In this document: in pieces, positions 1,796 to 30,223 of the stretch
Layout of the letters: each line of letters starts with the position of its first letter
Numbering within the stretch: position 1 is the stretch's first letter
Source of the DNA: Anaerocolumna chitinilytica
GTDB taxonomy: Bacteria; Bacillota; Clostridia; Lachnospirales; Lachnospiraceae
Assembly (NCBI RefSeq): GCF_014218355.1
Contig: NZ_AP023368.1
Location: 2,050,001-2,114,000, forward strand
Length of the DNA: 64,000 nt
Reading direction: 5' to 3'
Position numbers and translations under genes: made by a program
The notes under the pieces: generated by a model
The model's input: the letters and a program-made list of their open reading frames with translations, nothing else
What the model was told of the DNA's origin: nothing
Databases searched by the model: none

Positions 1796-2068
1796 ATGTA
1801 TGTATATCTTATGAAGAATTTAAAGCCTCTCAATGAAGAGGTGGTAAAAAGTCACGTAGAACATCTAAGAGAATTAGATAGCACAGGGAAGCTTGTGCTT
1901 TGTGGGCCTTTCACAGATTATCCCGGCGGAATGGTAGTTTTCACAGCCAAAGATTTGGACGAGGCCATTACCATAGCGAATTCGGATCCTTTTATTGCCT
2001 TCGGATATAAATCCTTTGAAATAAGAACGCTGGAGCAAGCAAATGAAGAGAACAATTTTCTTATTTAA
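1796..2068 (+). CDS. YciI family protein
   Basis: A 90-aa single-domain YciI-like protein (dimeric alpha+beta barrel, ferredoxin-like). It shows the usual MYVYLMKNLKP start, an HVEHLRELDSTGKLVLCGPF core with the conserved His and the GPF turn, and a DPF motif (SDPFIAFGY). The frame is open from 1757, but the ATG at 1796 has a good AAGGAG site (1781-1786) and matches the family N-terminus. YciI-like proteins have no settled function in most bacteria; some relatives act as dehalogenase or isomerase-like enzymes. It sits between two membrane-protein genes on the same strand. Confidence 0.85.
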   Translation: MYVYLMKNLKPLNEEVVKSHVEHLRELDSTGKLVLCGPFTDYPGGMVVFTAKDLDEAITIANSDPFIAFGYKSFEIRTLEQANEENNFLI

Positions 2069-2099
2069 GAATAGAAAATCTTAGTTAGAATGGAGATTT

Positions 2100-2744
2100 A
2101 TGAAAGAAAAAAATAGTATCATAAAAATAGGCGGAATTGCATCCATTATTTCCGGTATTCTTACTCTTATTCAGAACCTGTTCCTTCTGCCTGTATTTAG
2201 TCCGCCGGCTATGGATACGGATTTAGAAACTTGGCTTTCCAGATGGCATTTTCACATTGCCATGGCAGATGAAGTGCTCTTATTTGCAACCTTAGCATTG
2301 ATTCCCACTATCGCAGCATTATATCAACTACTGGTAAATACAGAAAAAGCAAAAACATTAATTGGGTGCGGAATTATAGCGCTTATTCTTCCGATTAATG
2401 TATTCCTGGATATTATTCTGGGACGATTGGCTTACCCGGTATATAATATGGAAATGTCAGCCGGTATCAATAAACTGATACTTAGTGTCTTCTACGGAGG
2501 CATGCATTGTGCAGCTATCCTTTGGTGCATAGCTATCATTATACTTTGTTATCTGATTCGAAAAAGCGCTATTGGTAAAATGATTGCTTATTTCGGCTTT
2601 TTGACTGCGGCATTGGTTCTTATAGGTGCTTTTCCCTGGGTGATTGGAAATGTTTTGTACTTTATTACACAACTGTTTTTCTCAACATGGTTTGTTATTC
2701 TTGGAATAAGAATATTGTTCGTTCAAAAGCAGACAAACAACTAA
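2100..2744 (+). CDS. polytopic membrane protein, unknown function
   Basis: A 214-aa protein with about six hydrophobic helices (roughly residues 8-30, 58-76, 85-108, 123-146, 158-178 and 182-206). I do not recognise catalytic or transport motifs. It is loosely reminiscent of DUF4386-type membrane proteins, but I cannot assign it. The ATG follows TGGAG at modest spacing. It is the third gene of the 840-2744 run, and its end overlaps the end of the convergent MarR gene by 4 bases. That overlap suggests a compact locus in which the MarR protein may control this run. Confidence 0.7.
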   Translation: MKEKNSIIKIGGIASIISGILTLIQNLFLLPVFSPPAMDTDLETWLSRWHFHIAMADEVLLFATLALIPTIAALYQLLVNTEKAKTLIGCGIIALILPINVFLDIILGRLAYPVYNMEMSAGINKLILSVFYGGMHCAAILWCIAIIILCYLIRKSAIGKMIAYFGFLTAALVLIGAFPWVIGNVLYFITQLFFSTWFVILGIRILFVQKQTNN

Positions 2745-3187
2745 TTATTTATTTTCTTAAGAAGTGAAAGCGTCTCAAGGAAATTTTTATATTGCTCATC
2801 ACCAATTGACTGTTGCAGATTGGTTTGAGCATTTTTCCAAAGGGGTAGGGCGTCCTTCAGTTTCTCCTTTCCTTCATCACTTAAGGTAATTCTTTTTCTG
2901 CGTGAGTCTTTCTCTTCTGTTTGAACAATTACATACCCATTCTTACGTAGGATTTCAATATTACGTGTGACAGTTGTCTGGTCCATCATGGAATATTCAG
3001 CCAGTTCGTTAATTGAAAGGCCTTCTTCTTTGGAAGCAATATCATTTAATAAAGCGAACTGCGTCGATTTTATACCGGAATCATTAAGTGCCTTGTCATA
3101 ATACTGTGTAACCATTCGGGTTGTCATACGTAGATTTCGGCATGCACAGTTTATTAGTCTCGGTTCTTCCTTTTTATCTGTTTTCAT
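2741..3187 (-). CDS. MarR family transcriptional regulator
   Basis: A winged-helix MarR repressor of 148 aa. The helix-turn-helix (LSINELAEYSMMDQTTVTRNIEILRKNGYV) and the wing with the family signature EEKDSRRKRITLSDEGKEK are clear, with dimerisation helices at both ends. The open frame extends upstream to 3313, but the ATG at 3187 is preceded by an excellent GAAAGGAG, so the first 42 residues of the longer frame are not coding. A perfect palindrome lies immediately upstream at 3203-3229 and is probably its own operator. Its ligand and other targets are unknown. Confidence 0.88.
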   Translation of the reverse strand: MKTDKKEEPRLINCACRNLRMTTRMVTQYYDKALNDSGIKSTQFALLNDIASKEEGLSINELAEYSMMDQTTVTRNIEILRKNGYVIVQTEEKDSRRKRITLSDEGKEKLKDALPLWKNAQTNLQQSIGDEQYKNFLETLSLLKKINN

Positions 3188-3202
3188 CTTAACTCCTTTC
3201 GT

Positions 3203-3229
3203 GAATATCAAATCTTCGATTTGATATTC
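3203..3229. promoter_or_regulatory. perfect palindrome, likely MarR operator
   Basis: Arms GAATATCAAATC (3203-3214) and GATTTGATATTC (3218-3229) are exact inverse complements around TTC. The dyad ends 16 bases before the MarR start codon. MarR repressors usually bind 16-20 bp dyads of this A+T-rich kind in their own promoters, so autoregulation is the natural reading. A hairpin in the 5' leader is the alternative. Confidence 0.6.
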
Positions 3230-3335
3230 CTGAATCTGTAGTTGAAAAAACGTCTTTTGTTTTTTCAAAGAAATAATATATATAACAATAAAGGTTGAAA
3301 AACCGCTTGTCAAGTGCTGTAAAAATTCCTGCCTC

Positions 3336-4376
3336 TCAATTCTTATCGATGGAATAAAGGACGCAGATACTTTCTGCCATTTCTCTTACTTTAGGATAGG
3401 GGCTTTCCAAAGCGTCCAAAACTAACTGACGGTATTGCTCTTGGTAATGGTTCTTTATATAATTAAGTGCATTTACCTTCCATTTCCAGAGTTCATCTGC
3501 TGTAAGGTAGAAAAATTTGGGCTGGACCTTATCTCGATAGAAGTCCTCTCCCATATTCAGAAGGGCTTCTGCGGTAAGAGAAGGGGCGAGTTCAGTAAGT
3601 CCCGGAAAAGCCTCTTGTGCTGCCCACTTTTTGTGATTCATAGGGCATACATCCTGACAGACATCACACCCATAAATCCATTCTCCAAAATTCTCGGCCA
3701 TAGGTTCCTGTGGGAGGTTCCTTCCGCCGAAAGTTGTTAAAAAGGAAATGCAGCGAAGGGGATTCATGGTGTAGGCATTACAAAGGGAAGCGGTGGGACA
3801 GGCTTTGATACAACGGTCACAGTTTTTCGGGCAGGGAGGCAGAGTGGTATTACTTTTAAGTTCCAGTTCCATGTCAATCAAAAATGCTTCCAGATGAACC
3901 CAGGAACCAGATTCCGTATAGAAAAAATTATTCCGTCGGATAATTCCCAGACCAGCCTGTAATGCTGCCCAGCGCATTCCGACAACTCCAAATTTCCGGT
4001 TGATTTCAACTTTCAGCCCAAGGCTTTGCAGGTATAATTCCAATTGGCGGCTCTGTTGATATTCCGTGGTATTCTCGTCAATACGTACATCAAAAAGGTA
4101 TGACTTCCCAATATGTCCGGAAACATTTTCTGGAACATGATACTTCGAATAAGGAACAGTCAGTATAATTACAGATTTCGCCCAAGGGAATTCCTCCTGA
4201 ACATGAGCCAGGCGCTGTTGGCCTTTATAAAATACTCCGGAGTCCGGAACATTTTTAACCCGTTCCTCCAGTTTCTCCTGATATCCGTCCAGCATAGGAA
4301 TTGGAATGATGCCGCATTTTTCATAGCCTAATTCTAAAGCCTTTTGTTTTATTGATAATGCGATTGATTCGATCAT
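3336..4376 (-). CDS. QueG-like double [4Fe-4S] protein (epoxyqueuosine reductase family)
   Basis: A 346-aa protein related to epoxyqueuosine reductase and reductive-dehalogenase-like corrinoid/Fe-S enzymes. It has an N-terminal DUF1730-like half. The ferredoxin-type half carries two cluster motifs: CPKNCDRCIKACP (Cys182, 186, 189, 193) and CDVCQDVCP (Cys237, 240, 244), with a further Cys209 in LRCISFLTT. Canonical QueG has a catalytic Asp before the cofactor-binding segment. Here the equivalent stretch reads EINRKFGVVGMRWAA, with no obvious Asp, so queuosine synthesis is not assured. The ATG at 4376 has a distant AAAGGA. No queuosine genes are nearby. The family call is firm; the reaction is uncertain. 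Confidence 0.75.
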   Translation of the reverse strand: MIESIALSIKQKALELGYEKCGIIPIPMLDGYQEKLEERVKNVPDSGVFYKGQQRLAHVQEEFPWAKSVIILTVPYSKYHVPENVSGHIGKSYLFDVRIDENTTEYQQSRQLELYLQSLGLKVEINRKFGVVGMRWAALQAGLGIIRRNNFFYTESGSWVHLEAFLIDMELELKSNTTLPPCPKNCDRCIKACPTASLCNAYTMNPLRCISFLTTFGGRNLPQEPMAENFGEWIYGCDVCQDVCPMNHKKWAAQEAFPGLTELAPSLTAEALLNMGEDFYRDKVQPKFFYLTADELWKWKVNALNYIKNHYQEQYRQLVLDALESPYPKVREMAESICVLYSIDKN

Positions 4377-5542: not shown

Positions 5543-7042
5543 TTATCTTGAAGCTGGCCTTTCTATTGCTTTATCGGTTTGCGCTGCATTTTTGCTGGCT
5601 TCTTCTTTGTTTCTTCGCATTTCCTCTATGGACTTCTCAGGTACTTTGATACCTTTATAGTCTTTGGAAGGTATCAAGTTTTCAGAAGACAGTCTTACCT
5701 TTGCCAGCTTAATTTCCTCCTGATACTGAGGTAACCAAGCTTCGCCTGCGACCAGCATTTCATCCACCATCTGATAGATTTCTGCAGGTGTGCAGACTGC
5801 ACCTGTTAATGGGTCCATTAACATTGCCTGGCGGAGCAGGGCAATATCACCAGTTACAGCAGCTTCTACAGCCAGGCGCTGTACCCAGATACTTTGAGAA
5901 CAAATAGCAGCACAACCAAGGGGCAGATCACCTACCTTTGGGATATTAATACCATTAGCATCTATGTATCCAGGAACCTCAACTACACTCTCCGCAGGAA
6001 GATTCGTAATACAACCGTCATTCATCACATTAAAATGTCCGCGGTATACCCGTCCGGTTTCCAGACCTTCAATGATGTAGGAGCCATGTTCCTGGCTTCG
6101 ATTCTCTGAAGTATATTGCTTTGCTGGTTCTTTCATCCAGTTAGGGAAATCATCCTCGAACCAATTTCTTCCTTCCCTGCAAACTCTGAGATATCCACCG
6201 GTTTCACCATTAATCCAAACACCTAAGTCAATCCATTTTTCCACTTCGTCAGGGCGTTTTCTGTACCAGGCAACATATTCGGACAAATGTCCATTCGATT
6301 CCGTAGAATAAAATCCAAAATTCTTTAAGACATCAATTCGAACCTTCTCAGTCTTTGATAATTCTTCATTTGCAAGGTAAGCCGGAAGAATTTTAGGCAG
6401 CATATCCTCCCCTTTGTGTTTAACAGAGATATACCAAGTCTGGTGATTGATTCCGGCACAGATAATATCAACTTCTTCTTTCTTTAATCCAAGAGCTCGG
6501 GCAATCTGGTCATGGCCGCCTTGTACTCCATGACATAGACCGATGGTCTTAACTTTTCCGTATTTATTGGCAGCCCAGGTAAGCATTGCATTAGGATTGG
6601 AATAATTGAGCATAATTGCACCAGGGGCAGCAACTTCTCTGATATCCTTGCAGAAATCCAATATTGCAGCCACACCACGCTGGCCATACATTATCCCTCC
6701 GGCACATAAGGTATCGCCCACACATTGGTCTATTCCGTATTTTAAAGGAATCTCCACATCAGTTTCAAAAGCTTCCAGCATTCCGATGCGGACACAATTA
6801 ATAATATAGCGGGCATTTGTAAAGGCCTCCCTACGGTCAGTGGTTGCGTGAATCTGGATGGAGAGACCATTCTCCTGAAGGTCTCTTTGGCAAAGAGATG
6901 TAACCATGTCCAAATTGTGTTGATTGATATCAGTAAAAGCTACTTCAAGATCATGGAACTCAGGAACTGCCATCAAATCGGAGAATAAAGTCCTTGTAAA
7001 ACCTACACTTCCGGCACCGATAAAAGCAATTTTAAATGACAT
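5543..7042 (-). CDS. melA: GH4 alpha-galactosidase/glucosidase (MelA-type, NAD- and metal-dependent)
   Basis: A glycoside hydrolase family 4 enzyme of 499 aa. It shows a Rossmann NAD site (FIGAGSVGFTRTLF, residues 8-20), the NYSNPNAM segment (147-153), the metal/active-site CHGVQGG (Cys170, His171) and AGINHQTWY (Asn199, His200). GH4 enzymes hydrolyse glycosides by an NAD-dependent oxidation-elimination route with Mn2+. The CHGVQ form is closest to alpha-galactosidases rather than phospho-glucosidases. That would make it a cytoplasmic enzyme for raffinose-type oligosaccharides or related sugars; galacturonidase is an alternative within the family. It is about 50 residues longer at the C-terminus than typical MelA. 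GGAGG precedes the ATG. An AraC regulator is divergently transcribed upstream. Confidence 0.82.
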   Translation of the reverse strand: MSFKIAFIGAGSVGFTRTLFSDLMAVPEFHDLEVAFTDINQHNLDMVTSLCQRDLQENGLSIQIHATTDRREAFTNARYIINCVRIGMLEAFETDVEIPLKYGIDQCVGDTLCAGGIMYGQRGVAAILDFCKDIREVAAPGAIMLNYSNPNAMLTWAANKYGKVKTIGLCHGVQGGHDQIARALGLKKEEVDIICAGINHQTWYISVKHKGEDMLPKILPAYLANEELSKTEKVRIDVLKNFGFYSTESNGHLSEYVAWYRKRPDEVEKWIDLGVWINGETGGYLRVCREGRNWFEDDFPNWMKEPAKQYTSENRSQEHGSYIIEGLETGRVYRGHFNVMNDGCITNLPAESVVEVPGYIDANGINIPKVGDLPLGCAAICSQSIWVQRLAVEAAVTGDIALLRQAMLMDPLTGAVCTPAEIYQMVDEMLVAGEAWLPQYQEEIKLAKVRLSSENLIPSKDYKGIKVPEKSIEEMRRNKEEASKNAAQTDKAIERPASR

Positions 7043-7314
7043 AAATTATAACCTCCTGTTAAGTATGGTAGTAAATTATTTACTTGCAGTAATGCTAACA
7101 GTATTATATTCTATAATAAAAGAAGAGAAGGAAAGAATTCTTAACTTTATCATTAAATGTAAGAAATTATGATATATAAGTATGGAAATGAGCTATTTTA
7201 TTCTTGATTACGCCTGTATGTATTTCGTATGGTTTGTATTTAGAGTTATATAATTGATTCTGGGCTAGAAAGCCTTTCTCCCTTATGTTTACAGGCAATA
7301 CGCCTAAATCAAAA

Positions 7315-7357
7315 AGAAAGAATGCGCCTTGGAACCAGCGCATGAGTCTATCTTTCT
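7315..7357. repeat. imperfect hairpin in the GH4/AraC control region
   Basis: AGAAAGA and ATGCGC (7315-7327) pair with GCGCAT and TCTTTCT (within 7338-7357), around the loop CTTGGAACCA and with a 7-base bulge on the right side. No T-tract follows, so it is not an ordinary terminator. A regulatory site or leader structure for the AraC gene or for the GH4 promoter is possible. Confidence 0.4.
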
Positions 7358-7419
7358 GGTTTGGACGATTGCGTTCCCATTACTAAAACTAATCCATGAA
7401 TATTTAAATTAAAATTAAC

Positions 7420-7428
7420 TGGTATAAT
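7420..7428 (+). promoter_or_regulatory. extended -10 promoter of the AraC gene
   Basis: TGGTATAAT fits the extended -10 form (TG-N-TATAAT) with a perfect hexamer at 7423-7428. It lies 22 bases before the AraC start codon and just ahead of its AAAAGGAG site. No good -35 is visible, as expected for extended -10 promoters. Confidence 0.5.
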
Positions 7429-7450
7429 TATCCGAAAAGGAGATAGGAAT

Positions 7451-8374
7451 ATGAAAGATTTCATTAGAGAGCAAAGTGTTCAAGCAGCAGATAATGTAAG
7501 CTTATACAGTAGGAACAATCGGGATAACTGGTTTAAGGTTAACAGGTACTACGCTATGAACTTTGATTTCTTTGAGATGGAACCCCACACCCACGGAGAA
7601 TTTGAGATTATGTATATAGCCAGCGGCTGCTGTAATATATACAGCTGGACTCAAAAGGAAGAAAAAAGATGGGAGATGAAAGAAGGAGAGTATGTAATCA
7701 TTGACGGTGATACAAAACATCAGCTGGAAGTAGTAAGAGGAGTAAGATGCCGAATATTAAACCTGGAAATCTCGCTGTTACCACAGGTGGAGGATTTGAG
7801 TATAAAAAAGCTTAGCGGTCAGTCCAAATCCCTGGAGGATTTTTTGAAAATGCCGGTCCCCATATTCAAGGGTTATGATGCAGAGGGCAATTTGCATTCG
7901 ATTCTGACAGATATTCATAAGCAGCTGCAAAATTCAACGGATGAAATGGAACATAAGGTAATGCAGAATCTGAACCTGGCCAGACTTCTGATTGAGCTTG
8001 GAAGACAAAGAATGAAAAAATATCGGAACGATGGCGGGAGTAAGTATGTGCGCATGGCTCTTGCTTATATGAATAATAATTACGATAAAGATATCAGAAT
8101 TGAAGATATTGCAGAAGAGATAGGGATATCCTCCGCTTATCTTCAGCGGCTGTTTAAAGAACAAACCGGTAAGACACTGGTGGATAAAGTGAATGAGCTT
8201 CGGATTGAAAAGGCGAAACTTCTTCTTGAAACCAGCAGGCTGCCTGTAACGGACATTGCATTTAGTGTTGGCTTTAACAACCGCCAGCATTTTGCCTATA
8301 CCTTTCGAAAGCTTACCGGATGCTCGCCTTCTGTTTACTGCAAACACAGGGGAGATTATCAAATCTGGATATAA
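7451..8374 (+). CDS. AraC family regulator with cupin sensor domain
   Basis: A 307-aa AraC-type regulator. An N-terminal cupin (about residues 30-120; HTHGEFEIMYIASG with metal/ligand-type His residues) is followed by a C-terminal double helix-turn-helix (about 205-300; DIRIEDIAEEIGISSAYLQRLFKEQTG and the second motif PVTDIAFSVGFNNRQHFAYTFRKLTG). The ATG has a clear AAAAGGAG. It is divergent from the GH4 gene. By the usual arrangement in this bacterial group, it likely activates that gene when its sugar is present. It ends 14 bases before the end of the convergent HxlR gene. Confidence 0.88.
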   Translation: MKDFIREQSVQAADNVSLYSRNNRDNWFKVNRYYAMNFDFFEMEPHTHGEFEIMYIASGCCNIYSWTQKEEKRWEMKEGEYVIIDGDTKHQLEVVRGVRCRILNLEISLLPQVEDLSIKKLSGQSKSLEDFLKMPVPIFKGYDAEGNLHSILTDIHKQLQNSTDEMEHKVMQNLNLARLLIELGRQRMKKYRNDGGSKYVRMALAYMNNNYDKDIRIEDIAEEIGISSAYLQRLFKEQTGKTLVDKVNELRIEKAKLLLETSRLPVTDIAFSVGFNNRQHFAYTFRKLTGCSPSVYCKHRGDYQIWI

Positions 8375-22032: not shown

Positions 22033-23304
22033 ATGAAAGAATCAAAAGAAGTGAAGAAATCTTCGGAAGAATATGATAAACTAGCCATATTAGAAAATAC
22101 AGCCGATTGCATCTGGGTATATTCACTGGCAGAGAATCGATTCCTTTATATTAGTCCTGCTATCTATACACAACGAGGCTTTACGGTAGAAGAAGCAATG
22201 AAAGAGACCTTGGAAAGTTCAATGACATCTGAAAGTATTCAGAAAATACTGAATGCTAGTAATAAATGCTTACCCAGATTTCTGGCGGGTGATCGGAGTG
22301 AAGAAGTTACGATAAATGTCAGTGATTTTGAAGTTTATTGCAAGGATGGAACCATTAAAAATATTGAGGTATCTACAAGACTGATTTTAAATGAGAATAC
22401 AAGAAGTGTGGATATAATTGGTGTATCAAGAGATATTACCAGACGGAAGCAATATGAAAATGAACTATTGGAAAAATTAAGGAGTCTATCAGAAACAGAG
22501 GCTTCCTATAAAGTGAATGATATAGTAAAAATCCGTATTCAATTCTTTAAAAAATTCTCGGTTTATGGCCCGGGGAACGCTGTACCGATACGTTGGACAA
22601 CTCTAAAAAATGAAGAACTACTTGCATTTTTATTAACCAGAACTCATAATTGTATAACGAAAGATGAAATTCTGGAAAGTCTTTGGCCGGAGGTTGAGTT
22701 CTACAAAGCCGGAGCGTATCTTCACAATACCCTGTATTCCATGAAGAAGGATCTGAAAAATGCAGGGATTTTTTTCGAAACAGTATTTAAAAATGGCTGT
22801 TATACTTACTATCTGGATGATTACTATTCAGATCTGCTGCATTTTAGTAAATTAATTCAGGATACTGTTCTGCCTTTCGATAGTGTTGATGATATAGCAA
22901 GAGCATCACTTGAGAAGATAGTAGAGTTGTATACGGGGGACTTTCTTGAAAAAAATGGTTATTTATGGGCACATTCAGATTGCAATTTTTATCGTACCAA
23001 GTTCAATTCAGCAGCATTAGCTCTTTCAAAATATTATTTTATGAAGAGAAATTATAATGCAGCAAAACGGGTTCTGTTAAAAATCCTGGAGGTTGATTAC
23101 TCGGACGAATATACCCATGAACTGCTGTTGCAAGTATATCTGCAGGATAATGATTATATAGCCTTTCTTAGACATTATAACGAATTGAAAAATTATCTCC
23201 AGCGTGAGCTGCAGATAACTCCAAAAACTACTATACAAAATCTGTACAATCGTTTTTACCCTGTAGCCATGAAGATTACAGAGGAGAAGACTTCCTTTTT
23301 TTAA
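22033..23304 (+). CDS. PAS domain fused to a SARP/BTAD transcription activator
   Basis: A 423-aa regulator. A PAS domain (about residues 15-140; ENTADCIWVYSLAENRFLYISPAIYTQRGFTVEEAM and the closing GVSRDITRRKQYENELLEKL) is joined to an OmpR-like winged helix (about 165-260; NEELLAFLLTRTHNCITKDEILESLWPE...AYLHNTLYSMKKDLK). A BTAD-type TPR domain follows (about 270-410; ELYTGDFLEKNGYLWAHSD). SARP-BTAD activators are best known from actinomycete antibiotic clusters; fusion to PAS makes this a candidate one-component sensor. The target is not evident. The histidine kinase gene 86 bases downstream may be co-transcribed. GGAAAGGAA lies before the ATG. Confidence 0.85.
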   Translation: MKESKEVKKSSEEYDKLAILENTADCIWVYSLAENRFLYISPAIYTQRGFTVEEAMKETLESSMTSESIQKILNASNKCLPRFLAGDRSEEVTINVSDFEVYCKDGTIKNIEVSTRLILNENTRSVDIIGVSRDITRRKQYENELLEKLRSLSETEASYKVNDIVKIRIQFFKKFSVYGPGNAVPIRWTTLKNEELLAFLLTRTHNCITKDEILESLWPEVEFYKAGAYLHNTLYSMKKDLKNAGIFFETVFKNGCYTYYLDDYYSDLLHFSKLIQDTVLPFDSVDDIARASLEKIVELYTGDFLEKNGYLWAHSDCNFYRTKFNSAALALSKYYFMKRNYNAAKRVLLKILEVDYSDEYTHELLLQVYLQDNDYIAFLRHYNELKNYLQRELQITPKTTIQNLYNRFYPVAMKITEEKTSFF

Positions 23305-24569: not shown

Positions 24570-25604
24570 ATGAATTCTGTATTTACCGGTGTTAGAGCCA
24601 AATGGTTACCCTTATATGAAGAGTTTCGTGGGGCGGCGGAAAAAAAATTGGGAGCTTTTAATGAATATGAGTCCTCCGGTTCAATTATATGGAAACATAC
24701 TTCTAGCTTTGCTGAGTTCAATGCAAAAAAGGATTGTATGATTATAGGATTTGCTTCGGACAGTATCCATGAGGAATGGGGGCCAGCCAAAGTTATCAGA
24801 ACCTCAAAGAACAGAGTTGCTCATTATTTTGAAGTTACAGATGATACTTTATTTTCCGAGTTAATCAGTTGGATTGCTGCTGCATATGAACTGACAATGT
24901 CAAATCGCAATTCAAGGAACAATACAAGCCCAGCCAAGGAAAAAACAGAATATCACAATTTTGAGGAGTATTTTGCCCTTTTTCCGGAAGATATTCAGGA
25001 AATCCTTGAGAAGATCCGCAAGTCTATAAGAGCAGCGGCTCCGGAAGCAATCGAGAAGATTAGCTGGCAGATGCCAACTTTCTGGCAGAAGGAGAATCTA
25101 ATTCACTTTGCTGCTATGAAGAACCACATAGGTATATATCCGGGAGCGACAGGTGTACAAGTATTTGCCGATAAACTGACAGGTTATAAGACTTCAAAGG
25201 GGGCTATACAACTTCCATTATCTCAGCCTATCCCTTATGATTTAATTGAAGAGATTACAAGATTTCGAGTGAATGAAGCAACCAATGGTGTTGCGGATAC
25301 AAGTCTTGACATCAGTGAGACAGTCCTTAAGGAAGAGTTATGTGAATTTGATGCAGTTATAAAGAAAGTTCCTGATATTGACGGAGCTTATGTTGAGATA
25401 CCCTTTGATGTAAAAGAGAGATATGGAAAAGGAAGAGTTCCGGTACATGCCACCTTTGACGGAGAGCCTTATGACGGCAGTCTGGTTAAGATGAAGACTC
25501 CCTGCCATATCCTTGGAATACGCAAGGAGATTCGCGAAAAGATTGGTAAACAACCGGGAGATATGGTTAAAGTTACTCTGCAAGAGCGGAATACCAAAAA
25601 ATAA
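24570..25604 (+). CDS. three-domain DUF5655-DUF1801-DUF1905 protein
   Basis: A 344-aa fusion of three small domains. Residues 1-110 resemble DUF5655 ([17 protein letters not shown]...[26 protein letters not shown]). Residues about 125-240 are DUF1801/YdhG-like ([39 protein letters not shown]). Residues 262-344 are DUF1905-like ([34 protein letters not shown]...GDMVKVTL). DUF1801 members include frataxin-like iron chaperone candidates; the others are uncharacterised. GAAAGGAAAA precedes the ATG. It is 60 bases ahead of the TetM-NYN gene on the same strand. Confidence 0.8.
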
Positions 25605-25664
25605 ATGAGCTTCTAAAAGACAAGAAGTTTAAAATAGACTAGAAATGAAGGTTTTATATTATTT

Positions 25665-28328
25665 ATGAGAAAACTTGTTATCGGAATATTAGCCCACGTA
25701 GACGCAGGTAAGACAACCCTGTCCGAGGGGATACTGTATCTAAGCGGTAAAATCGGTAAGCTTGGGAGAGTAGATAAAAAGGATGCCTATTTGGATACCT
25801 ATGAACTGGAAAAGGCTAGAGGGATAACTATTTTCTCTAAACAAGCAGTCTTTGAAACCGGTGATATTCAGGTTACTTTGCTGGATACCCCCGGACATGT
25901 GGATTTTTCCGCAGAGATGGAGAGGACACTCCAGGTACTGGATTATGCAATTCTGGTAGTAAGTGGTACAGACGGAATACAGGGACATACAAAAACCTTG
26001 TGGAAACTTTTAAAACAGTATCATATACCGGTTATTTTATTTATTAATAAAATGGATATGCAAGGCGCTAGCAAGAACAGCTTGATGAATGAATTAAAAC
26101 AGCTGGATGATGGATGTATCGAATTTGAAGATACTTTGACAGAAACTTTTTTCGATCAGCTTGCCATGTGTGATGAAAAGATGCTGGAAGCCTATCTTGA
26201 AAGAGGAACAATCGAAACCGTTCTGATGAAAGAGGCTATACGAAACCGTAAAGTGTTTCCCTGTTACTTTGGCTCTGCCTTAAAACTGGAAGGAGTGGAG
26301 CAGTTGCTGCAAGGTATTGCCAGCTTCTCTGTCATACCCTCATATCCGGCAGAATTTGGAGCCAGAGTATTTAAAATTACAAGAGATGAACAGGGTAACC
26401 GTCTTACACACTTGAAGATTACCGGAGGAAGCCTAAAGATAAGAGACATCTTATCCAATGGTATATGGGAAGATAAAGTAAATCAAATACGTATATATTC
26501 CGGTCAAAAATATGAAACCGTAAATGAAGCTATTGCTGGATCAGTCTGTGCAGTAGTTGGGCTTAGCGGTACAAAGACGGGAGAAGGCTTAGGCATAGAA
26601 AGTGCAGTCCATGCACCTATCCTGGAACCGGTATTGTCCTATCAGGTTCTGCTCCCGGCAGGGTGCGATCCCAGGGCAATGCTGCCGAAATTGCGGCAAT
26701 TAGAGGAAGAGGAACCGGAACTTCATATTGTATGGGAAGAAGAATTACAGGAAATACAGGCCCAGCTTATGGGTGAAGTACAGATAGAGATTCTATGCAG
26801 TCTCATAGAAACCCGTTTTGGAGTAAAAGTAGCCTTTGGCGAAGGAAAGATTGTCTATAAGGAAACCATTTCTGATATGGTAGAAGGGGTAGGGCATTTT
26901 GAACCATTGCGCCATTATGCGGAAGTTCATCTGTTGCTGGAACCAGGAGAGAGCGGAAGTGGTCTGATTTTTGAAACAAATTGCAGTGAGGATATCCTTG
27001 GAAAGAGCTGGCAGAGACTTATACTTACTCATCTGGAAGAGAAAGAGCATAGAGGGGTATTGACAGGTGCACCTATAACAGATATGAAAATCACATTGAT
27101 TTCCGGCAGGGCACATAACAAACATACGGAAGGCGGGGACTTCAGAGAAGCTACCTACCGGGCGGTACGAAATGGGCTTAAACAGGCGAAGTCTGTACTA
27201 TTAGAACCCTATTATTCTTTTCAACTGGAGCTGCCGGAGAAAATGGTCGGCAGGGCTATGGCAGACATTGAGAAGATGTGCGGAACCAGCGAATTGGCCC
27301 AGAATCATAATGGAATGGCACTTCTTACAGGCAGCGGGCCAGTAATTACCATGAGAAACTATCAGAAAGAAGTGGCGGCTTATACCCAGGGGCTTGGCAG
27401 ATTGTTTTTGAGTCTGGAAGGATACGAGCCCTGCCATAACACAGAAGAGGTGCTTGAGATTATCGGTTATGATTCGGAAAGAGATATCATGAATCCGACC
27501 GGTTCGGTATTCTGTGCCCATGGTACAGGATTTTTGGTAGAATGGTACGATGTTAAGAAGTATATGCATGTAGAAGGATATCTAAAAGAGAAGTCTGTCG
27601 GTCAAAAAGAAAAGGCCGAGAGCAGGGCACCACAGGTGGAAGAACCATGGATATCCCTGGAAGAAATAGACAAGATTATTAATAATACCGCATACAGTAA
27701 CCAGGGAAAGAAGTCCGGATGGAAAAGACCAAAGACAGCGTTGGAAAGCTACTATGAAAGTTTAGGTTCAGGAAACTCAAGCAGCGGTGGAAAACAGAAA
27801 GAAACCAGGGAAGAATATCTGCTGGTAGACGGTTATAATATTATCTTTGCATGGCCTGATTTAAAGGAACTGGCAGCACAGAATATGGATGGTGCCAGAA
27901 TGAAGCTCATGGATGCTCTGTGTAATTACCAGGGGATTCGGGGAGGACAGATTATTGTTGTATTTGATGCTTATCTTGTGCAGGGACATATCGAAGAAGT
28001 CATAGACTACCACAATATCCATATGGTATTTACCAGAGAAGCCCAGACAGCAGACCAGTATATAGAGAAATTTGCCCATGACAACCAGAAAAAGTACAAT
28101 ATTGTAGTAGCTACCTCCGATGGCTTGCAGCAGGTGATAATCAGAGGAGCTGGTTGTGCTCTTTTGTCTGCCAGGGAATTGAAGGAGGATATGGATGCGG
28201 CAAGTGAAAGACTGCGTCAGGAATATACGGATTTACAGGAACATAAACGCAACCATCTGATTGACAACTTATCGAAAGATGCAAAGAAGCAGTTAAGTGA
28301 ATTGATACATGAAGAAAAGGAGAAGTAA
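25665..28328 (+). CDS. TetM-like ribosomal-protection GTPase fused to a YacP/Rae1-type NYN nuclease domain
   Basis: An 887-aa protein. Residues 1-640 are an EF-G/TetM-like translational GTPase with G1 (AHVDAGKTT), RGIT, G3 (DTPGHVDF), G4 (NKMD) and G5 (GSA), then domains II-V. Residues about 640-715 form a polar linker. Residues 716-887 are an NYN/PIN-like domain of the YacP type, with acidic residues in LLVDGYNIIFAW, VVFDAY, TADQYIEKFA and VVATSDGLQQ. YacP of B. subtilis is Rae1, an endoribonuclease that cuts mRNA in the ribosomal A site, and TetM-type factors also enter the A site. A single protein that clears or opens stalled ribosomes and cleaves the mRNA is a reasonable inference. Tetracycline resistance is not established. 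A terminator follows at 28315. Confidence 0.9.
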   Translation: MRKLVIGILAHVDAGKTTLSEGILYLSGKIGKLGRVDKKDAYLDTYELEKARGITIFSKQAVFETGDIQVTLLDTPGHVDFSAEMERTLQVLDYAILVVSGTDGIQGHTKTLWKLLKQYHIPVILFINKMDMQGASKNSLMNELKQLDDGCIEFEDTLTETFFDQLAMCDEKMLEAYLERGTIETVLMKEAIRNRKVFPCYFGSALKLEGVEQLLQGIASFSVIPSYPAEFGARVFKITRDEQGNRLTHLKITGGSLKIRDILSNGIWEDKVNQIRIYSGQKYETVNEAIAGSVCAVVGLSGTKTGEGLGIESAVHAPILEPVLSYQVLLPAGCDPRAMLPKLRQLEEEEPELHIVWEEELQEIQAQLMGEVQIEILCSLIETRFGVKVAFGEGKIVYKETISDMVEGVGHFEPLRHYAEVHLLLEPGESGSGLIFETNCSEDILGKSWQRLILTHLEEKEHRGVLTGAPITDMKITLISGRAHNKHTEGGDFREATYRAVRNGLKQAKSVLLEPYYSFQLELPEKMVGRAMADIEKMCGTSELAQNHNGMALLTGSGPVITMRNYQKEVAAYTQGLGRLFLSLEGYEPCHNTEEVLEIIGYDSERDIMNPTGSVFCAHGTGFLVEWYDVKKYMHVEGYLKEKSVGQKEKAESRAPQVEEPWISLEEIDKIINNTAYSNQGKKSGWKRPKTALESYYESLGSGNSSSGGKQKETREEYLLVDGYNIIFAWPDLKELAAQNMDGARMKLMDALCNYQGIRGGQIIVVFDAYLVQGHIEEVIDYHNIHMVFTREAQTADQYIEKFAHDNQKKYNIVVATSDGLQQVIIRGAGCALLSARELKEDMDAASERLRQEYTDLQEHKRNHLIDNLSKDAKKQLSELIHEEKEK

Positions 28329-28353
28329 GCCAAAGAGGTTGCTTCTCCTTTTT
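28315..28353 (+). terminator. intrinsic terminator of the TetM-NYN gene
   Basis: AAAAGGAGAAG (28315-28325) pairs with CTTCTCCTTTT (28342-28352). The stop codon lies in the loop, and the T-run is part of the right arm. Confidence 0.7.
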
Positions 28354-28451: not shown

Positions 28452-29756
28452 TTAACTGCGCAATAATTTTCCAGCATGGTAATTTGATAGCCGTAAGATG
28501 ATCCCTGTAAATAAGAGTAGTAACTGTACTAAAACAACCGTGTACCATACACCGTCAATACCAAAGAGTTTTGGAAGAAAAAAGGCTGCAAGGGGCAGCA
28601 GTACAATGGCTTCTCCATATACCATAACCGCAGAACTCCTGCTCTTCTTTATTGCATTAAAATATTCTGTAGTCACACGGGAAAAGGCATACAGCGGCAG
28701 GGAAAAGGCACATAAGGGGAGGGCTGTCTGTAAGACCTTTGCGGTTTCATGGGATACACCAAAGAAGCCGGCAATTTGATCTCGAAGCAGAATAATTATA
28801 ATAGTTGCTAATATCCCCACAGTAAAAGCCATATAATAGGTCCATTTTCGAAAAGTTTTTACAGCTTTTTTATCTTTGGCACCATAATAAAAGCTGATAA
28901 GCGGTTGTGTTCCTTCTCCCACACCCTGTAAGAGAAGCTGTCCGATGCTTAAGACATAGGAGATAACTGCAAATGCTGCTATTGCTGTGGTTCCGCCGTA
29001 AGTAGCTGCCTGCCGGTTAATAATCAGTATTGTCAGAGAAGGAATAAAACAAAGGCCAAAGACAGGTGTACCTACCTTTATAATGCTTCCGATTACATCT
29101 TTCTTTGGAAGGTAACAGGAAGCCGGAATGCGGTTTTCTTTCTTGAACAGAATGAATAGGGCTGGTATGCAAGTGATAAGCTGACCTGCTAATGTAGCTA
29201 AGGCAGCCCCTCTTACACCAAGGCCAAGAACCATTACAAATACACCGCTAAGTATAGTATCAATCGTAAAATTCATCAACATCAAAGCCATTGCAAGCAT
29301 CGGCTTGTTCTGATTGCGAAGCAGTGGTGTGACACCGGTAGCAAATACCTGAACGACAGCACCGGAAGAAAGAATCATTATATAATCGCTCCCTAATTTG
29401 AGAAGTTCACCCTCCGCACCCATAAGGCGAAGTAAAGGCTTTCCGAAAAGGAGTAAAAAAACGGTAATAAATATAGAGAATAGCATTAGTAATACCAGAG
29501 TGTTGCCAAAAGCTTTATCAGCTCTTTTTTTATCTCCTGCACCCATGTAATGGGAGATGTTCACGGAACCTCCCATACCGATACCGGTACCGATATCAAG
29601 AATCAGGGCTGCTAAAGGCCAAGCAACATTAATACTGCCAAGTCCCACATCACCTACTGTTCGTCCTACAAAAAAACCATCCACGCTGACATATATTCCC
29701 GTAACCAAAAAGGTTATCATAGAGGGCAGAATGTATTTCCAAAATTGCTTTTTCAT
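28452..29756 (-). CDS. MATE family efflux transporter (MepA-like)
   Basis: A 434-aa, 12-helix multidrug and toxin extrusion protein. The first helix has the family pattern (MITFLVTGIYVSVDGFFVGRTVGDVGLGSINVAWP), and the symmetric second half repeats it (GEGTQPLISFYYGAK). Cation-coupled export of drugs or metabolites is the expected role. The start overlaps the stop of the MarR gene by 4 bases (ATGA), so the two are translationally coupled, as in mepR-mepA of staphylococci. Confidence 0.9.
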   Translation of the reverse strand: MKKQFWKYILPSMITFLVTGIYVSVDGFFVGRTVGDVGLGSINVAWPLAALILDIGTGIGMGGSVNISHYMGAGDKKRADKAFGNTLVLLMLFSIFITVFLLLFGKPLLRLMGAEGELLKLGSDYIMILSSGAVVQVFATGVTPLLRNQNKPMLAMALMLMNFTIDTILSGVFVMVLGLGVRGAALATLAGQLITCIPALFILFKKENRIPASCYLPKKDVIGSIIKVGTPVFGLCFIPSLTILIINRQAATYGGTTAIAAFAVISYVLSIGQLLLQGVGEGTQPLISFYYGAKDKKAVKTFRKWTYYMAFTVGILATIIIILLRDQIAGFFGVSHETAKVLQTALPLCAFSLPLYAFSRVTTEYFNAIKKSRSSAVMVYGEAIVLLPLAAFFLPKLFGIDGVWYTVVLVQLLLLFTGIILRLSNYHAGKLLRS

Positions 29757-30223
29757 CTGATACCTCCGGATTGTTTCTCGGATTTCTCAAGTGCTTCTTT
29801 TAAATTATGATAAAATGCAAAATTACCGTTCATCATGCCTTCCCTCTCTGCAGAACTCATCTGAAGAAAAGCTTCCTGTTCAAAATTAAGTAACTCCGTT
29901 AAAAGACTGGCAGCATATTGACCGCCTGCTTTTGTAAGCAGGATATTCTTGCTTCGTTTATCCTTTGCGGAGGTTTCTCGTACCAAATATCCCTTCTCTT
30001 CAAAAGAATCAAGAATCGTATTTATGGTCTGCTTTGGGAAAAGCAGTTTCTCACAAAGAAAACTTAAAGTACAATGTCCCGGATTTTCATAAATTAAGTA
30101 CAATGTAAACAGAGAATTAATTGTAAGGTCGTGATGTTTGGCCCAATTCTCATAGATTGAATTGATACCCCAATAAACATCATAGTAATTTTTGATGTTC
30201 TGGAGGATATCATTATTAAGCAT
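29753..30223 (-). CDS. MarR family repressor of the MATE operon (MepR-like)
   Basis: A 156-aa winged-helix protein. HCTLSFLCEKLLFPKQTINTILDSFEEKGYLV is the DNA-binding part, followed by the wing with AKDKRSKNILLTKAGGQY. A good GGAGG precedes the ATG. It is the first gene of a two-gene operon with the MATE exporter. A perfect 18-bp dyad 20 bases upstream (30243-30260) is the likely operator, giving drug-inducible autorepression. Confidence 0.9.
   Translation of the reverse strand: MLNNDILQNIKNYYDVYWGINSIYENWAKHHDLTINSLFTLYLIYENPGHCTLSFLCEKLLFPKQTINTILDSFEEKGYLVRETSAKDKRSKNILLTKAGGQYAASLLTELLNFEQEAFLQMSSAEREGMMNGNFAFYHNLKEALEKSEKQSGGIR

Follow-up and report, generated by a model that had tools for sequence, protein, structure and literature searches.

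Why should a translational GTPase of the TetM/EF-G type end in a nuclease? The question is raised by a gene of Anaerocolumna chitinilytica, in a 64,000-nucleotide stretch of contig NZ_AP023368.1 (assembly GCF_014218355.1, positions 2,050,001 to 2,114,000), referred to here as the window. A single uninterrupted plus-strand frame, occupying exactly positions 25665–28328, encodes a protein of 887 amino acids (aa) in which GTPase, linker and a NYN nuclease domain of the Rae1 (YacP) type are all joined, as an earlier note drawn from the letters of the sequence alone had proposed. This fusion is the common form in the bacterial family (99 of 120 sampled genomes, including 2 with split genes), it seems to have replaced the cell's free rae1 in this lineage, and it is about an even bet that the product is a housekeeping clostridial translation factor, whose Rae1 part left its place beside rlmB and became the C-terminal part of a TetM/EF-G-type GTPase.

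The protein carries the complete domain set of an EF-G/Tet-type GTPase, as judged from Pfam and a structure model, with every domain exceeding its Pfam cut-off except EFG_III, which is marginal and falls just under. Its motifs AHVDAGKTT (residue 10), RGITI (52), DTPGH (74), NKMD (128) and GSALK (203) are what we take to be the G1, G2, G3, G4 and G5-like boxes, in that order. In the linker, the predicted local distance difference test (pLDDT) score of the structure model drops below 50 at residues 642–662, 676–695 and 697–713. By their titles, the top 50 rows of a Foldseek search with the full model were all chains of EF-G, EF-2 or EF-G2 type; the NYN domain was therefore modelled by itself, and it aligns with B. 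subtilis Rae1/YacP (PDB 5mq8/5mq9) and has the Rae1 fold. The earlier note had staked its proposal on the acidic residues of the nuclease site, and these are intact: D722, N725, D768, D797, E801 and D819 recur unchanged in 83/83 NYN domains compared.

The same architecture recurs well beyond this genome. NYN_YacP and GTPase domains occur together in all of the best 120 of 7981 scored homologues, and several homologues bear the NCBI name 'translation factor GTPase family protein'. Two samples were drawn, 120 genomes of the family (the source genome included) and 157 of the class, the names Lachnospiraceae and Clostridia being those given by the homologues. A NYN_YacP match was found in 108 of the family genomes: 97 lie within frames of 516–1038 aa, 2 are split (in overlapping frames in G042, at two contig ends in G095) and 9 are free (G007, G016, G020, G024, G029, G054, G059, G068 and G099). 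Since the best 120 homologues and 97 of the 120 family genomes share a NYN domain within a long frame, the fusion is neither chance nor an assembly artefact. Being the normal form in the family, and reported in 2015, it is no discovery of this DNA. The GTPase query matches 105 of the family genomes; of these matches, that in G068 (32% identity, 644 aa, Tet-like) was dropped and that in G099 is a broken copy. The 12 family genomes without NYN gave no GTPase match either at E 1e-20. The class sample comprises 58 genomes with the fused form, 3 with free NYN and an unfused GTPase, 4 with an unfused GTPase and no NYN, 1 (G250, a less complete genome) in which a fragment at a contig edge has the GTPase alone, 42 with NYN alone and 49 with neither, once GTPase rows below 40% identity had been dropped as ordinary EF-G or Tet-like. 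In a phylum sample, the GTPase was present in 10 of 149 genomes, always in frames of 857–909 aa.

Fused and free NYN domains were not found together in any of the 120 family or 157 class genomes, a fragment in G039 aside, nor were fused and unfused GTPases found within one genome of either sample; a weak second NYN match in G255 (21.3 bits, under the cut-off, with no tblastn match) was not counted. The G039 fragment (L273, contig C121, 2–421) is, in addition to the genome's fused gene, a second NYN domain, truncated where the contig stops; no sigH-like or queH neighbour was found in the 6 kilobases (kb) read there, and its neighbour is an opposite-strand frame of 1847 aa. G240 has two unfused GTPase copies (L129, L130) plus a free rae1, and G099 has a broken unfused copy (L144, about 6638–8215) and keeps a free rae1.

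Nine free-NYN loci contain rlmB in all 9, a sigma-70-type (sigH-like) gene in 8, and mrnC and cysS in 7; by Pfam, the G024 locus reads CysS, RNase III domain, SpoU methylase, NYN and sigma-70 protein, with queH between the last two. The B. subtilis genes yacO (rlmB) and rae1 are described as co-transcribed. When rlmB was searched in 23 genomes and a NYN domain sought within about 1.5 kb of it, one followed rlmB in G024 and G054 and was found near it in 0/17 fused genomes tested, that of A. chitinilytica included; in six of these 17 the rlmB and sigH-like matches end 14–55 base pairs apart. The remaining four rlmB genomes, which have an unfused GTPase without NYN, had no NYN near rlmB either. 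The source genome retains cysS-mrnC-rlmB with no NYN there, and the fused NYN_YacP is its only copy. G024, which belongs to the same genus, has a free rae1 and an unfused GTPase 46% identical to that of the fused protein. The neighbours of the fused gene vary, and the idea that it has a conserved partner gene beside it was rejected.

Phylogenetic analysis separates these proteins from the Tet group. In a first GTPase tree, the fused proteins form one group (support 0.982) with both split genes inside, the unfused form of about 650 aa (11 rows) is its sister, and three Tet-like rows lie outside. In a second tree with named loci added, the fused group (0.885) includes unfused proteins of two Bifidobacterium and one Collinsella. 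Fused and unfused forms together are supported at 0.935 and 0.94, with few Tet-like rows (3 and 4) falling outside, and in neither tree does the protein fall within the Tet clade. Neobacillus cucumis and Intestinibacter bartlettii, each with a free NYN, belong to the unfused sister clade. The fused-clade GTPases without nuclease are L196 and L201 (Bifidobacterium) and L200 (Collinsella), in frames of 686–741 aa; in the Collinsella genome a NYN match, at 91 bits a weaker one, lies in a separate frame of 232 aa. In L197, labelled unfused in the second tree, a NYN domain is present and the motif reads DAYN. The NYN trees differ in detail: FastTree nests the family's free NYN domains among the fused ones, a single fused NYN clade is not rejected by IQ-TREE (p 0.777; the constrained tree scores better, in a quick search), and the inner branches are weak. 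A break-up of the fusion as the origin of the family's free Rae1 was rejected, because the four family loci examined share with other Clostridia the neighbours rlmB, mrnC and cysS and because IQ-TREE allows one fused clade.

A passage of Atkinson 2015 (PMC4342817) states that the Tet proteins of ten Clostridiales species acquired a YacP-like NYN ribonuclease (RNase) domain, and suggests for the fusion a new resistance mechanism. The protein would then be an intrinsic ribosome-protection factor whose GTPase chases tetracycline or another A-site drug and whose NYN domain adds RNase activity, an explanation that we consider unlikely. TetO and TetM are the nearest solved relatives by sequence, and tet_protect is the best NCBIfam model, yet its score of 428.7 bits lies far under the NCBI cut-off of 775, which the Tet-like relative L137 passes with 1000.8; a fused and an unfused control score 429.6 (L045) and 406.2 (L012). 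The domain-IV loop is as long as that of TetO, but its tip is different and strongly conserved, KHT[EQ]GGDF in 56/59 fused proteins and KHT[ESCN]GGDF in 11/11 of the unfused sister clade, whereas TetM, TetO and L137 have YYSPVSTP; two further Tet-like proteins (L135, L136) have neither tip. Pro509 of TetM is reported to overlap the drug site (PMC7456112). The lack of the Tet-type YSPV tip of domain IV loop III is not decisive for function: the altered tip does not disprove tetracycline protection because TetM S508A/P509A/V510A is reported to be active (PMC4750697). Relatives occur in 38 plasmid records (33 from Ligilactobacillus), as might suit a resistance gene, but the fusion is present in about four fifths of family genomes (99/120), unlike acquired resistance. 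By score, tree and domain-IV tip, all of them features of sequence, the GTPase is outside the Tet resistance group. The earlier note's warning that a tetracycline-resistance annotation would mislead thus looks sound; such labels are borne by some fused and unfused relatives. One of the plasmid-borne relatives, L272 of Ligilactobacillus salivarius pHN3 (1822–3756), is an unfused protein of 644 aa annotated as tetracycline resistance and lying between rpsN and tkt. Relatives of domains IV–V at 59–63% also occur in the unannotated phage records MT835514 and MT835563 ('Bacteriophage sp.'), which may be bacterial contigs.

Equally doubtful is a recycling or translocation paralogue, resembling EF-G2, with a role of its own that needs no cutting and a nuclease that rides along for general decay of messenger RNA (mRNA) at ribosomes. 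EF-G chains rank above TetM in the structure alignment, an order affected by conformation. Two Bifidobacterium genomes have the GTPase but no NYN at all, and the same holds for four class genomes in which it takes the unfused sister form. The proposition that the GTPase never occurs without the nuclease, true of the 120 family genomes, fails in the class sample and in Bifidobacterium and was rejected. These nuclease-free relatives suggest a role for the GTPase independent of the nuclease. Against the paralogue explanation, the fusion has been kept across many families, and no fused genome was seen with a free second copy (the G039 fragment aside), which suggests that the joined activity matters.

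A housekeeping factor formed by the relocation of Rae1 is also consistent with the changes in its nuclease domain. The 28 positions conserved at a level of at least 95% in 22 free NYN domains were checked in 61 fused ones: 24 stay at 90% or more, and the exceptions are E109 (0.69), R120 (0.44), E125 (0.61) and R168 (0.30), in L037 numbering. Both arginines, R120 and R168, are present in 22/22 free domains and lost from many fused forms, that of A. chitinilytica included, despite a mean identity that is higher among fused domains (0.54) than among free ones (0.45). R168 aligns with R165 of Rae1, next to R166, and R166P is reported as a suppressor mutation that fits a loss of function (PMC6613710); PDB 5mq9 is, by its entry title, the W164L form. 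The C-terminal alignment of the fused forms is uncertain, with a gap at R168 in 21/61, and the arginine losses amount to few events, because related rows share changes. As R120 and R168 decay while the catalytic residues stay invariant, part of the Rae1 docking surface may no longer be needed in the fused form.

According to published descriptions, B. subtilis Rae1 cleaves mRNA in the ribosomal A site, and TetM and TetO bind this site. A course of events can be proposed in which Rae1 left its old place in the order cysS-mrnC-rlmB-rae1 for the GTPase C terminus. The GTP-bound factor would enter paused or stalled ribosomes whose A site is free, so that the conserved tip of its domain IV comes to lie in the decoding region. 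Once GTP had been hydrolysed and domain IV had left, the A site would be open, and the NYN domain, kept close by the long flexible linker, would cut the mRNA at that point, destroying the message and allowing rescue of the ribosome. The GTPase would thereby supply the docking that free Rae1 manages alone. Ribosome binding, A-site cutting and the order of these events are what we infer from the domains and their relatives. Tentatively, and with more doubt than belief, the protein may be described as a 'clear and cut' factor, in which GTP opens a stalled A site, the tethered Rae1 cuts, the GTPase takes over the lost docking surface and free Rae1 is replaced. The evidence suggests a routine translation quality-control factor. 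Of the rescue or antibiotic-response factor proposed in the earlier note, the ribosome-directed nuclease remains the best reading, and neither drug removal nor an antibiotic response finds support here.

Several points weigh against this interpretation. To our knowledge, no experiment shows ribosome binding, GTP hydrolysis or RNA cutting by the fused protein, and no experimental study of the fusion was among the matches listed in open-licence PMC papers. A TetM-type domain IV and Rae1 share one A site and cannot both be fully placed in it at once; because GTPase and nuclease would compete for this site, the model has to be sequential, which the long linker permits. The mutual exclusion of fused and free forms is partly a matter of ancestry, because the fusion event itself turns a free gene into a fused one, the chance values calculated for the exclusion take no account of kinship, and the second NYN of G039 could be free or fused, the contig end preventing a distinction. 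The gene neighbourhood of the fused gene is not conserved, the halves are split in G042, and several frames run off the end of a contig. NYN occurs without such a GTPase in 42/157 class and 4/120 family genomes, it is absent from 4 of the 7 class genomes that carry the unfused sister form, and the two Bifidobacterium genomes with a fused-clade GTPase lack it altogether. It is highly improbable, on the other hand, that the NYN domain processes ribosomal or transfer RNA, on the ribosome or on precursors, in place of mRNA: this idea, put forward earlier for NYN domains and taken up again by Atkinson 2015 (PMC4342817), would suit the old neighbours, an RNase III-domain protein and a SpoU-type methylase (described in B. 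subtilis as Mini-III and the 23S methyltransferase homologue YacO), but the best-studied homologue, B. subtilis Rae1, is an mRNA endonuclease by its description.

Features of the fused gene, with positions in the window and the evidence for each
Feature	Position	Strand	Evidence
Fused gene: translational GTPase, linker and Rae1-type NYN nuclease	25665..28328	+	Reading frame, Pfam, homologues
Weak Shine-Dalgarno-like stretch GAAGG, 13 bases before ATG	25647..25651	+	Read by eye
G domain, residues 4–219, G boxes present	25674..26321	+	Pfam PF00009 GTP_EFTU, 6.5e-52
EF-G domain II, residues 231–307	26355..26585	+	PF22042 EF-G_D2
EF-G domain III, residues 321–392	26625..26840	+	PF14492 EFG_III, 26.9 bits vs cut-off 27
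EF-G domain IV, residues 394–509	26844..27191	+	PF03764 EFG_IV
Domain IV tip SGRAHNKHTEGGDF, residues 480–493	27102..27143	+	Alignment; Tet YYSPVSTP tip absent
EF-G domain V, residues 511–592	27195..27440	+	PF00679 EFG_C
C-terminal extension common to fused and unfused clades, residues 593–640	27441..27584	+	Sequence comparison
Linker, residues 641–714 (about 75 residues)	27585..27806	+	Mostly disordered, two short helices
Rae1/YacP-type NYN nuclease domain, residues 719–880	27819..28304	+	PF05991 NYN_YacP, 6.6e-53; PDB 5mq8/5mq9; conservation

A terminator suspected by eye right after the stop (28316–28353) was not found in the terminator scan. The upstream neighbour (24570–25604), which ends 60 bases before the fused gene, encodes a 344-aa protein with DUF5655, DUF1801 and DUF1905 domains, and a MATE efflux pump with an overlapping MarR regulator lies convergent with the fused gene on the minus strand (28452–30223). 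Further away, at 22033–23304, a PAS domain is joined to a BTAD (SARP-like) activator domain.

The fusion itself is already known from the account in Atkinson 2015 (PMC4342817). The present analysis adds that free Rae1 appears to have been replaced, that two arginines decay in the fused forms and that the GTPase stands apart from Tet proteins. If the proposed function is true, about a third of the sampled class genomes (58/157) carry a GTPase-steered, ribosome-targeted mRNA nuclease, and there is a second way of delivering a nuclease to the A site. A comparison of fused with free forms, for which the source genome and G024 offer a pair from a single genus, would put to the test how Rae1 chooses ribosomes, and the 'tetracycline resistance' labels on some relatives would be corrected.

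Among known systems, the protein resembles TetM and TetO (PDB 3j9y, 4v6v) in its five-domain GTPase with a C-terminal extension; it differs from them in lacking the YYSPV tip, in its sub-cut-off score, in its extra nuclease and in its presence in most family genomes. EF-G-type chains share about 20–28% identity with it in structural alignments, and it is set apart from EF-G by its own domain-IV tip and 'GHFEPLRHYAE' stretch as well as by the added linker and nuclease. With B. subtilis Rae1/YacP it shares the NYN fold and all the conserved acidic residues, and the free Rae1 homologues of Clostridia adjoin rlmB as rae1 adjoins yacO in B. subtilis; Rae1, however, is a free enzyme of about 170 aa, whose family keeps the two arginines that many fused forms have lost. 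The closest counterparts are the 'Tet + YacP-like NYN' proteins of Atkinson 2015, which have the same architecture in the same host group and of which the 887-aa protein is a member. In contrast to their filing under Tet in that work, the fused proteins stand here apart from the Tet-like rows, are far commoner and seem to replace free rae1.
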